DNA from: Deltaproteobacteria bacterium
Lineage (GTDB): Bacteria > Desulfobacterota > BSN033 > UBA1163
Direction of reading: 5' to 3'
NCBI GenBank assembly: GCA_020059605.1
Contig: JAGVBT010000162.1
Span: 1-47,450 of the forward strand
DNA length: 47,450 bases
Under the pieces are notes generated by a model. The model was not told where the DNA came from and did no database searches. It saw only the letters and a program-made list of their open reading frames with translations. Positions 37,888-44,336 of this stretch are shown here, piece by piece; the stretch's first letter is position 1, and each line of letters begins with the position of its first letter. A program made the position numbers and the translations under genes.

Positions 37888-39990
37888 ATGATGGAAGAAA
37901 AGAAGTTCGAAGGCAAGTCCAAGGTTATCGTTCCGATCGACAGAATCCACTGTGCGGACTGCGCTCTCAATATTGAACGCTCGGTTGAACATCTTCCCGG
38001 AGTTCTCTCCGTGGAGGTGAGCTATGTCCTCTCCTCGGCCACGGTCCACTATGACCCCCACCGGGTGCAAGAGGAAGGGATCAAAAAAGCCATCACCAAG
38101 CCCGGTTACATCGTCAGGGAGGGTTTTGCCCAGAGGACGCGCACCTTCTGGAGAGGCATGAGACCCTCCTTTTTTATGGCAGCTTCCGGCATGATGCTGG
38201 CCCTGTCCTGGATTTCTCAATGGTTCCATTTGGGGCCAATGGGCCTCCCGACCTTTTTGGCCATCGCCTCTTTGGTCCTCGGAAGTTACCCCATTTTGAA
38301 GAGCGCCATCAAGGCCCTCCTCATCCCCGATTTAAATGTGGACACCCTGGTTTCCATTGCCGCCATCGCCGCAACTTCTGTCGGCGCCTATCAGGAGGCG
38401 GCAACGGTCGTCTTTATCATGCTTCTTGGCGAATTCCTCGAACATCTCACCGTTGGGAAGGCAAGAAAAGCGATCTCTTCTTTGATTCAGCTCTCTCCGA
38501 AGACAGCCTGGGTGAAAAGGGAGTCAGAGGAGATTCGGGTTCCCATCGAGGAGGTCAAGGCCAGGGAGATCGTGATCGTCAAGCCCGGAGAGAGGATCCC
38601 GGTGGATGGGAAAATTATCTCCGGATGCGGTTCGATCAACCAGTCCATGCTCACCGGAGAAACCCTTCCCGTTGAAAGAGGGGTTGGGGACAGGGTCTAC
38701 TGCGGAACCATTAACGAGTCCGGTTCTTGTGAAATCGAAACCACCCAGGTGGCCGAAGATACCAAGCTTGCCCAGATCAAGCGTCTCATCCTGGATGCCC
38801 AGGCTCAGAAGTCGCCGACACAGAGGCTGATGGACCGTTTTGCCCGGTATTTTATCCCGGCCATTCTTCTCATCGCCCTCGCAACGTTTCTCGTTACGGG
38901 AGATCCCATCCGGGCGATCACCATCCTGATTGTCGCTTGCCCCTGCGCCCTGATTCTGGGGACGCCTACCGCCGTGGTGGCGGCTATCGGAAATGCAGCC
39001 AGGCAGGGAATTCTAATCAAAGGAGGGGCCTACCTCGAACAGTTGGGAAGATTGGAGACCCTCCTGATGGATAAGACAGGGACCCTTACCCATGGAAGGC
39101 CCAAGGTGGCGGCGGTAAACGCCCTTGACGGATCGGATGAAAAAGAGGTCCTCTACTGTGCCGGAATTGCCGAGAAACGCTCCGAACATCCCCTGGCCAG
39201 AGCCATCATGGATAAAGCCGAAGAATGGGGTCTCGCCCTCCCCCATCCGGAGTCCTTCGAGAACTTTCGGGGTAAGGGTGTAAAGGTTCAATCGAATGCC
39301 GGTAACATCCTGGTGGGAAGCCCTTCGTTCCTCAAGGAGGAAGAAGTTGACGTTCCGGAATCCGTCAAAGAGAGGTTGAAATTGACGGAGTCGGAAGGCG
39401 CGACCACGCTGCTCGTCGCTCTGAACCATCGTATCATCGGAAGCGTCGCCATTGCGGACACCTTGAGGGAGAAGGCGAAGTCCGCCATCGACAGGATCAG
39501 GAAAGAGGGACTGTCTGAAATCTGGATGCTCACGGGCGACAGCGAAGCGGTCGCCAACCGGATTGGAAAAGAATTAGGGATCCGGTACGAGGCAAATCTT
39601 CTTCCCGAAGAGAAGGTGTTGAGGGTAAAGGAGTGGAAAAAACAGGGCCGGACAGTGGCCATGGTTGGTGACGGGGTCAATGATGCGCCTGCACTGGCCG
39701 CTGCGGATGTCGGCATCGCCATGGGTGCGGCAGGAACGGATGTTGCCATCGAGACAGCCGACATCGCATTGATGACGGATGAACTCGAAAAGATCCCCGC
39801 AGCGATCCGCCTCTCCCGCAAGGCCCTTCGGGTGATCAAACAAAATATCGCCTTTGCCCTTGTCTTTAACACCGTGCTGGTCTTTCTCTCAGCCCAGGGA
39901 TGGATGACCATGATCCTAGGAGCCGTGATGCACCAGGCCAGCTCCCTCCTGGTCATCCTCAATTCGATGAGGCTGTTGAGGAGAACATAG
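37888..39990 (+). CDS. Heavy-metal P1B-type ATPase
   Basis: 700 residues. N-terminal HMA-like domain with IHCADCALN, then about eight TM helices. CPC ([12 protein letters not shown]) is in the transport helix; the actuator loop ends [17 protein letters not shown] is the phosphorylation site; [18 protein letters not shown] follow. The last helices read FNTVLVFLS and [13 protein letters not shown]. They match neither the Cu motif (Y-N plus M-x2-SS) nor the Zn/Cd motif (K plus D-x-G) well; an HxxSS-type pattern as in CtpC-like exporters is closer. It pumps a transition metal outward; specificity is open. Confidence 0.92.
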
Positions 39991-40160: not shown

Positions 40161-40607
40161 ATGGAGGAGAAGAAGTTTAAGGAGATCATTCAGTTTGCCG
40201 TTGGTAAGGAGATTGAGGCTTTCAATTTTTACACTGAGGCCAGTCGGAATGCCAAATTTTCCGGAGGGAAAGAGCTGTTTTTGTCATTGGCCAAAGAGGA
40301 GGAGGGCCACCGAAGGGTGTTAGAGAAACTGAACATGGAGAAGATTGCTGGTGCGAGGATCGAAAAGATACCCGACCTTAAGATCAGTGACTACATGGTC
40401 GAGGTAGAAGTTAAACCTAATCTCTCCTATGCTGAAATGCTTCGGATCGCTATGAAGAGGGAAGAACATTCTGTCAAACTTTATGATGATCTAAAAGGAT
40501 CGAACCCTGATGAAGATTTAAAGAAGCTTTTCACCTTTCTGATTCAGGAGGAAGGCAAACACAAACTTAAACTGGAAAAAATCTACGACGACGAAATTTT
40601 AAAATAA
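40161..40607 (+). CDS. Rubrerythrin-like ferritin domain protein
   Basis: 148 residues, four-helix bundle. Helix-borne ligands are GKEIEAFNFYTEA, AKEEEGHRRVL, MKREEHSVKLY and IQEEGKHKLKL, giving the E-x-n-E-x2-H diiron pattern twice. No rubredoxin domain is attached, but a separate rubredoxin gene lies 109 bp downstream and could be its electron donor. Likely peroxide reductase or iron-binding protein of the oxygen-defence set. Confidence 0.85.
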   Translation: MEEKKFKEIIQFAVGKEIEAFNFYTEASRNAKFSGGKELFLSLAKEEEGHRRVLEKLNMEKIAGARIEKIPDLKISDYMVEVEVKPNLSYAEMLRIAMKREEHSVKLYDDLKGSNPDEDLKKLFTFLIQEEGKHKLKLEKIYDDEILK

Positions 40608-40715
40608 ACCACAGGGCTATTAGGAGCGACCTTCGGCCTTGAGGATCAAGGTTAAAACCCTCAAACGAAGTGCTCCTCAAATGAAATGCTCCTATTGCAT
40701 CATTCGGAGGTTGAA

Positions 40716-40874
40716 ATGGGAAAATACAAATGTACCATCTGCGGCTACATCTACGATCCGGAAAAGGGGGACCCGGACAATGGCATTCCCCCCAACACTC
40801 CTTTCGAGAAACTCCCAGACACCTGGGTCTGCCCGGCTTGCGGAGCAGACAAGGAGATGTTCGAAAAGGAATAA
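40716..40874 (+). CDS. Rubredoxin
   Basis: 52 residues, exact rubredoxin length, from ATG 40716 with GGAGG 6-7 nt upstream. [15 protein letters not shown] and [11 protein letters not shown] give the two C-x2-C-G knuckles for one iron, with the conserved Tyr, Pro and Trp (DTWVCPACG). It carries electrons to rubrerythrin or superoxide reductase type enzymes in anaerobes. Confidence 0.97.
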
Positions 40875-42791: not shown

Positions 42792-42851
42792 GGGAAAAAC
42801 CTTCCCTTGATTTAAGGGCATCGGGATGGTACTTTTAATGAGGAGGAAGCG

Positions 42852-43013
42852 ATGATTTTCAGGATTGTTTTAGGGTTGGTCATCGGCGGATTCGCCGGTT
42901 TTCTTTTAAGCTACCTCACCCGGGGTATCGGAAGCGCCTGAGCCCTTACCTGCAATCCCTATGTAAGCGTCCCGCTGGGCGCTCTTGTGGGGTTGATCGT
43001 GGCCTTAGGCTAA
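42852..43013 (+). CDS. Small membrane protein with in-frame UGA (candidate selenoprotein, DUF6132-like)
   Basis: ATG 42852 has a strong AGGAGG 5 nt upstream. Codons 1-29 give a hydrophobic helix (MIFRIVLGLVIGGFAGFLL) and GIGSA. Codon 30 is TGA (42939-42941). The frame continues ALTCNPYVSVPLGALVGLIVALG to TAA 43011-43013. The text across the TGA follows the DUF6132 pattern, where Cys-Pro-x-Thr-x-Asn-Pro is usual, so the UGA falls at the conserved Cys. A small stem-loop begins about 25 nt after the UGA. Two membrane helices total. The alternative is a nonsense mutation in a decayed gene, but coding character is kept on both sides. Confidence 0.6.
42966..42983 (+). promoter_or_regulatory. Candidate bacterial SECIS stem-loop
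   Basis: AGCG-u-CCC / GGG-CGCT, seven pairs with one bulged U and a GCU loop whose first base is G. The loop begins 33 nt after the UGA, inside the 16-37 nt range described for bacterial SECIS elements. SelB-binding is inferred. Confidence 0.4.
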
Positions 43014-43781: not shown

Positions 43782-43811
43782 AAAAAAGAGAGCCGAAAGG
43801 GAGGAATGAGG

Positions 43812-44336
43812 ATGAATGAAAAAGAACGTCTCAATGCCTTGGAAGTCGCCCTTAATAATGAGATGAGGGAAAGGGAATTCTATCTGAAAAACGCTGAGAG
43901 GACGAAGAACTCTCTCGGCAAAAAGATGTTTCAACAGATCGGGGATGATGAGCTGGAGCACTACGAACGACTCAAACAGCTCCATGAAAAGTGGACGAAG
44001 CAGGAGAAGTGGCCTGAGACCGTACCCCTGAAGGTTCAAGAAACCGTGGTAAAAGATATTTTGTTCGACTTTGTAAAAAAGGCGAATGAAAAGGCCAAAG
44101 GCGATTCGGATGATTTAGAGGCAGTCCGGATCGCCCTCGATTTCGAAGCAAAAGGGGCGAAGTTCTATGCGGACATCAGGGATGCCTCTATCGATCCCAA
44201 AGAGAAACAATTCTTCGACCTTCTCTCCAAAATGGAGAATGAGCATTTTCTTTCCCTCAAGGATACGGAAGAATATTTCATTGATCCTGTTTCCTGGTAT
44301 CGAAAGATGGAGCACCACACCCTGGATGGAGGGTAG
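43812..44336 (+). CDS. Ferritin-like (rubrerythrin-family) protein
   Basis: 174 residues from ATG 43812 (AGGGAGG 8 nt upstream; ATG 43806 is too close). Two helix pairs with E...E-x2-H ligands: NNEMREREFYLKNA and GDDELEHYERL, then DFEAKGAKFYADI and SKMENEHFLSL. The ending IDPVSWYRKMEHHTLDGG is typical of a rubrerythrin subgroup. Third ferritin-like gene within 7.3 kb. Confidence 0.82.
   Translation: MNEKERLNALEVALNNEMREREFYLKNAERTKNSLGKKMFQQIGDDELEHYERLKQLHEKWTKQEKWPETVPLKVQETVVKDILFDFVKKANEKAKGDSDDLEAVRIALDFEAKGAKFYADIRDASIDPKEKQFFDLLSKMENEHFLSLKDTEEYFIDPVSWYRKMEHHTLDGG

Follow-up and report, generated by a model that had tools for sequence, protein, structure and literature searches.

A predicted 53-residue membrane selenoprotein, distantly related to DUF6132, in a deltaproteobacterial contig

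We found that a short region of a contig from a Deltaproteobacteria bacterium (JAGVBT010000162.1 of assembly GCA_020059605.1; 47,450 nucleotides, termed the window) is a genuine gene, with a reading frame conserved far beyond chance, and that, on comparative evidence, its in-frame UGA codon very probably encodes selenocysteine (Sec). SelB, Sec-tRNA, and a hairpin downstream of the codon would insert Sec into the loop between two helices of a small membrane protein. The frame proposed by the first-pass annotation, with AGGAGG ahead of an ATG at 42852, a TGA at 42939 to 42941, and an open continuation to a TAA at 43011 to 43013 (53 residues), was confirmed in the sequence, as was the placement of the Sec (U30) four residues before a cysteine (C34). 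Under translation table 11, a gene caller would terminate the product after 29 residues, and gene finders would probably miss the protein. As a whole, we regard as likely an explanation in which the product is a Sec-containing membrane hairpin with a Sec/Cys redox pair, perhaps linked to thioredoxin. The features of the gene are as follows.

42841 to 42846, forward strand: Shine-Dalgarno sequence AGGAGG, read from the sequence.
42852 to 43013, forward strand: gene for the 53-aa predicted selenoprotein, with TGA read as Sec and TAA (43011 to 43013) as the stop (TGA conservation, dN/dS).
42855 to 42929, forward strand: predicted helix 1, residues 2 to 26, hydrophobic, with a glycine-zipper-like G8/G12/G16 spacing (AlphaFold2 model; glycine-zipper Pfam side hits of some relatives).
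42939 to 42941, forward strand: UGA codon, residue 30, predicted Sec (conserved TGA).
42951 to 42953, forward strand: TGC codon of the putative partner cysteine, residue 34, Sec+4 (sequence; partner-Cys pattern).
42957 to 43007, forward strand: predicted helix 2, residues 36 to 52 (AlphaFold2 model).
42966 to 42983, forward strand: candidate SECIS hairpin with a 7-bp stem and a CGCT loop, 25 to 42 nt after the UGA (folding tests, covariation).

Searches with the window protein recovered a full-length 53-residue protein with one TGA in 15 of the 17 genomes of the window's family (f1, which includes the window's own genome, G000), with no match in the other two (G003 and G004). Once each locus had been oriented, the TGA fell at the same column in all 15. 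The same query, run against 395 genomes of the phylum, returned 35 match rows in 32 genomes, 31 of them with one TGA and 4 with none, and more diverged relatives across the phylum retain the UGA. The four rows without a stop were dropped; three of them (G079, G210, and G161:C159) have E values of 0.0036 to 0.0057, and the fourth (G009:C52, at L032:99-173) is a decayed remnant of the 3' part of the gene, G009 carrying an intact copy as well.

Were the UGA an ordinary stop, a 29-residue peptide would be followed by untranslated or decaying sequence. Table 11 does read the codon in this way, and the fragment in G009 shows that the 3' part can decay in one genome, but both the conservation of the UGA across families and the selection downstream of it make this reading highly improbable. 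Among the 15 f1 sequences, dN/dS is 0.113 before the UGA and 0.190 after it, and pN/pS is 0.28 in frame versus 1.1 and 3.0 in the shifted frames. After the UGA, 32 of 69 columns are identical versus 0 of 36 beyond the true stop, and thus the conservation ends at the true stop. In another family, f21, the corresponding figures (six of seven sequences, L127 being left out) are dN/dS values of 0.293 before and 0.139 after the UGA, with 43/69 identical columns after the UGA and 4/36 after the stop. The decay of the frame after the TGA, which the first-pass annotation had named as the outcome contrary to its proposal, was therefore not seen in the homologs, where the downstream part is under purifying selection and alignment showed the UGA to be kept at its column.

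The Sec machinery of the window's genome is represented by selA, selB, and selD; of the four genes for which a check had been proposed, only selC (tRNA-Sec) was not found in the draft, where the best tRNA-Sec match is a tRNA-Ser and the tRNA-Sec gene of a relative used as the query gave no match. The selD gene itself has a TGA in the context AG-U-AAK, and a SelD motif UxxK is listed among selenoproteins in the available part of Table 1 of PMC13188914. This fit offers an internal sign that the genome decodes UGA as Sec. Across the family, tRNA-Sec scores at least 76 bits in 15 of 17 genomes, the exceptions being G000 and G004, and ARAGORN calls it in all six of these 15 that were submitted to it. 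Given that the G000 assembly is 93.7% complete, an assembly gap is the simplest reading of its missing tRNA-Sec. The selA gene exceeds the cut-off in all 17 family genomes and in 355 of the 395 phylum genomes, a frequency that renders a test of co-occurrence with selA uninformative; one genome carrying the gene, G108, yielded no selA. As a separate observation, tRNA-Cys(GCA) genes of 92 nt, scoring 51.7 to 56.7 bits against the tRNA-Sec family, occur at L067 (G011), L068 (G015), and L069 (G010), in genomes where a true tRNA-Sec is present as well; these are reminiscent of the tRNA-Sec-like tRNA-Cys genes of the literature. Taken together, the conserved TGA, the dN/dS after it, and the presence of selA, selB, and selD support the original proposal that the UGA encodes Sec.

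The first-pass annotation had also compared the product to DUF6132 (PF19628) proteins. The sequence comparisons indicate that the window protein is a distant relative of DUF6132 that falls short of the Pfam cut-off (13.0 versus 23.2 bits). A search with the window protein reaches, at E = 1.4e-6, a DUF6132-type Sec relative in G359 whose locus itself exceeds that cut-off. When the best 15 candidates per genome in the 395 phylum genomes were scored against DUF6132, a procedure that may miss weaker or Cys-bearing matches, at least 21 rows were recovered, at least 12 of them over the cut-off; among the rows listed, the 12 over the cut-off and one just below it all have a TGA at the column. Eight low-scoring rows with no TGA at the column were set aside. 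Inspection of the three frames on the match strand placed the L098 and L101 matches inside longer open reading frames of a different phase, and showed L100 to be partial and L106 to contain no full homolog; the remaining four (L097, L099, L102, and L103) were judged from translation alone. Of the 47 pattern matches from a scan of named genomes, based on an alignment of four DUF6132-type members, 18 were relatives, and each of these has a TGA at the column; among them are loci of Pelovirga terrestris M08fum and Trichlorobacter thiogenes ATCC BAA-34. The pattern left the Sec column free, so that Cys forms were not excluded by the scan. L163 and L164 encode almost the same protein, one coming from a Cloacimonadota bin and the other from a Geobacter bin; the Cloacimonadota locus may be contamination. 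Two DUF6132-type Sec copies each are present in G095 (L130 and L134) and G124 (L133 and L145), and in L134 and L145 a proline directly follows the Sec, as in the Cys-Pro of the Pfam profile.

To see which residues the DUF6132 profile favors, substituted copies of one member (L087) were scored against it. At the Sec column, Cys gave 48.0 bits and Ser, Ala, Thr, Lys, and Trp gave 41.3 to 43.4; at position -5, Cys gave 48.0 bits and Ser, Ala, and Gly gave 42.1 to 43.4. Cys is thus preferred over Ser by about 4.6 bits at both the UGA column and -5, and changing both Cys to Ser lowered the score to 38.8 bits. Introducing Cys at +4 reduced it to 46.9 bits. Elsewhere, the score was raised by Pro at +1 (54.1) and Ser at +4 (50.7), lowered by Ala for Thr at +3 (45.2) and Tyr for Trp at +7 (44.3), and left nearly unchanged by Asn for Ser at +5 (48.3) and Ala for the conserved Pro (47.6). 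These scores indicate that the profile carries the motif C-x4-C-P-x-T; the window protein departs from it in having Sec in place of the second Cys, in lacking the Cys at -5, and in having Ala at +1. The motif that the first-pass annotation gave for this place, Cys-Pro-x-Thr-x-Asn-Pro, is thus borne out in part and through the profile: the Cys, the Pro at +1, and the Thr at +3 are rewarded, Ser and Asn score about equally at +5, and Trp scores above Tyr at +7. This probing is the one source of support for Cys at the UGA column: searches for Cys-bearing homologs gave no match among plasmids or viruses, and a scan of named genomes restricted by its pattern to Cys at this column yielded no relative.

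The same probing bears on the reading of the UGA as some other amino acid through a code change or a suppressor. The open frame is the sole point in favor of that reading. Against it, the profile prefers Cys at the column to the five other residues tried, the selD of the same genome has a UGA in its Sec motif, and in a pooled set of 59 loci (the window, 40 others, and the 18 from named genomes, all chosen for carrying the TGA) the true stop of the gene is itself UGA in 21. We accordingly give a code change or suppressor next to no probability. An ordinary stop, a decayed gene, and a code change were thus all rejected on the conservation, the selection, and the Sec-type selD.

Returning to the Sec reading, the pooled loci encode 57 distinct proteins, which are related and so do not represent 57 independent events, and these divide into two types by the position of a nearby cysteine. 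Type A (29/57) has a Cys at -5 or -6 and none at +4, and type B, that of the window (28/57), has a Cys at +4 and none at -5 or -6. Not one has both partner cysteines or neither, and some have further Cys elsewhere. The U-A-L-T-C arrangement proposed as a pair at the outset is present in the window protein, but a Cys at +4 is confined to its subfamily; in the other Sec members the Cys lies at -5 or -6. From this pattern of one partner Cys we infer that Sec and Cys34 probably form a selenol-thiol/selenenylsulfide pair. The move of the partner from -5 to +4 amounts to a natural experiment on Sec/Cys pairing.

The candidate SECIS element was evaluated at several phyletic depths. Considered alone, the window hairpin is unremarkable: its z score is -0.99, 33 of 200 dinucleotide shuffles and 451 of 2,000 synonymous-codon nulls fold as well, and in a simple SECIS-like scan of the two strands of the window, 65 of the 1,795 TGA triplets equal or exceed its score. 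Across the 15 loci of the window's family, the advantage over synonymous nulls is mild, 14 of 400 folding as well (305/400 for a control region before the UGA); the count is again 14/400 for the window's genus (eight loci), 142/400 for seven loci of sister genera, and 90/400 for the seven f21 loci. A like-placed hairpin of 7 to 8 bp is present in seven of the eight genus loci and is weaker or absent in the sister genera. In the 15 family sequences, the paired fraction of the 7-pair stem (84.8% of cells) and its covariation score (0.268) were matched in none of 500 shuffles and exceeded those of every slid version; the stem had been defined on the window itself, a choice that favors it. Five cells differ at both paired positions, a number attained in 2/500 shuffles, and one slid version has six. 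RNAalifold picks five of the same pairs. The stem-loop claimed by the first-pass annotation hence stands as to its 7-bp stem and its position 25 to 42 nt after the UGA, but its loop, CGCT, has G as the second base, not the first. On these sequence comparisons, the window's putative SECIS is supported in the genus and unproven beyond it.

For type A, 28 of 31 loci were aligned (three near-duplicates were left out), giving 26 distinct rows. All 28 aligned rows have a 7-bp hairpin with a GGUC loop, which we take to be the bacterial SECIS loop type as in Escherichia coli fdhF. None of 500 shuffles attained the observed number of doubly changed cells (eight) or the covariation score, whereas the number of further pair types was ordinary (139/500). 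With the protein held fixed, none of 400 synonymous-codon nulls folds as well, the control before the UGA giving 93/400.

An AlphaFold2 model of the window protein (Cys in place of Sec, 17 sequences; mean pLDDT of 83.2, pTM of 0.58) has helices at residues 2 to 26 and 36 to 52, with Sec and Cys34 in the loop between them. Solved structures provided no sequence match (best E = 0.16) and no fold match (best E = 4.2). The mean charges of the 29 type A proteins are +2.4 at the N terminus and +0.55 in the loop, which suggests that the loop of the DUF6132 type lies outside the cytoplasm; for the window's type the charges (+1.1 and +0.7 for 27 of the 28 type B proteins) are ambiguous. An extracytoplasmic loop in the DUF6132 type would sit uneasily with a cytoplasmic thioredoxin partner. 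Glycine-zipper Pfam side hits were obtained for up to 5 of 26 relatives, and we see roughly an even chance that the glycine-zipper-like helices pack several copies of the hairpin together. The same hits would suit a small membrane protein with a purely structural role, its Sec acting neither in catalysis nor as a ligand, but the retention of a costly residue together with one partner Cys renders this reading quite improbable.

The neighbors of the gene vary between families. In f21, a thioredoxin gene lies directly upstream in all seven loci (Pfam was run on one of the seven), and a zinc-ribbon gene lies downstream in six of the seven; in the six loci that allow the measurement, 12 to 23 nt separate the thioredoxin stop from the start codon. 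In G100, a thioredoxin-reductase-like pyridine nucleotide-disulfide oxidoreductase is encoded downstream, followed by a zinc-ribbon gene. An Fe-superoxide dismutase is found downstream in five of the eight loci of the window's genus (by Pfam in one and phmmer in the rest), and an MFS transporter upstream in nine loci, the window included. Clustering of the 13 type A loci outside the named-genome scan yielded no neighbor family present in four or more loci; for the 18 named-genome loci, the comparison of neighbors was limited to ten query proteins, and the remaining neighbors were judged by eye from translation starts. No thioredoxin adjoins the window gene, which has these neighbors:

37888 to 39990: P-type ATPase with a heavy-metal-associated domain, about 3 kb upstream of the gene.
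40161 to 40607 and 43806 to 44336: rubrerythrin-like genes, one on either side of the gene.
40686 to 40874: rubredoxin.

These neighbors point loosely to redox or metal defense. In the mechanism that we propose, the gene product would be a two-helix membrane hairpin, Sec would be placed by SelB, Sec-tRNA, and the downstream hairpin at the UGA in the short interhelix loop, and Sec and the nearby Cys34 would act at the membrane surface as a redox site for the reduction of an oxidant (for example, a peroxide, a disulfide, or a reactive sulfur species), the oxidized pair being re-reduced by the thioredoxin system. The redox role and its link to thioredoxin, which draw on the gene neighbors in other families, are plausible but have, in our estimate, somewhat less than an even chance of being right. 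Alternatively, the pair might bind or carry a soft metal, a metalloid, or a sulfur species in the membrane with no shuttling of electrons. Two chalcogen ligands in a small membrane hairpin would be apt for this, MerT-like (PF02411) and YeeE/YedE (PF04143) transporters are among the Sec-containing families in the available part of PMC13188914, and a heavy-metal-type P-type ATPase lies within about 2 to 7 kb of the gene in 5 of the 59 loci, the window included. However, all five belong to the window's family, the ATPase is not directly adjacent, and the recurrent direct neighbors are instead thioredoxin, superoxide dismutase, zinc ribbon, and MFS transporter genes; we consider a ligand role rather unlikely. 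As for the redox reading in its broadest form, it is a tentative and rather doubtful proposal that these proteins are a new, widespread family of tiny membrane selenoproteins, whose resolving Cys moved from -5/-6 to +4 and which act as a thioredoxin-fed oligomeric redox relay carrying reducing power into or across the membrane.

The family may be a selenoprotein family hidden in plain sight that is absent from the lists checked. Table 1 of PMC13188914 (2026) gives 119 selenoprotein families, among which neither PF19628 nor a fitting motif was seen, rows with no motif being impossible to judge. Nor was the family seen in the available parts of deep-Sep (PMC12013277), PMC9312934, and PMC1914089; the open-access literature offered no description of it, and one may exist elsewhere. 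Among the NCBIfam matches of the 26 members searched, four of them type A, the best E value was 0.0049, and no selenoprotein model was among the families listed. For DUF6132, a domain whose function is unknown, the Sec members provide a functional handle, namely a pair of redox residues or chalcogen ligands whose position in the two-helix hairpin is fixed, and DUF6132-type Sec members occur in the isolates T. thiogenes and P. terrestris.

The window protein can finally be set against known systems. It resembles DUF6132 in its length of about 53 to 60 residues and its two hydrophobic helices, and its Sec column is that at which the profile rewards Cys; it differs in having Sec for this Cys and its partner Cys at +4 versus -5. 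The MerT-like and YeeE/YedE selenoproteins are, like the predicted product of the window gene, membrane proteins, but their motifs are different, and neither PF02411 nor PF04143 was among the Pfam matches of the window protein or its relatives. TsoA (NF045695), given with the motif LULAXC in the available part of the PMC13188914 table, has by that motif Sec four residues before Cys, as does the window protein, but the order of the motif differs (LULAxC versus UALTC), and NF045695 was absent from the NCBIfam matches of the 26 members at E values up to 1. With respect to the E. coli fdhF-type SECIS, the DUF6132-type Sec genes are alike in having a GGUC loop that starts about 20 nt after the UGA, whereas the window's subfamily departs from it in both the position of its candidate hairpin and its CGCT loop.
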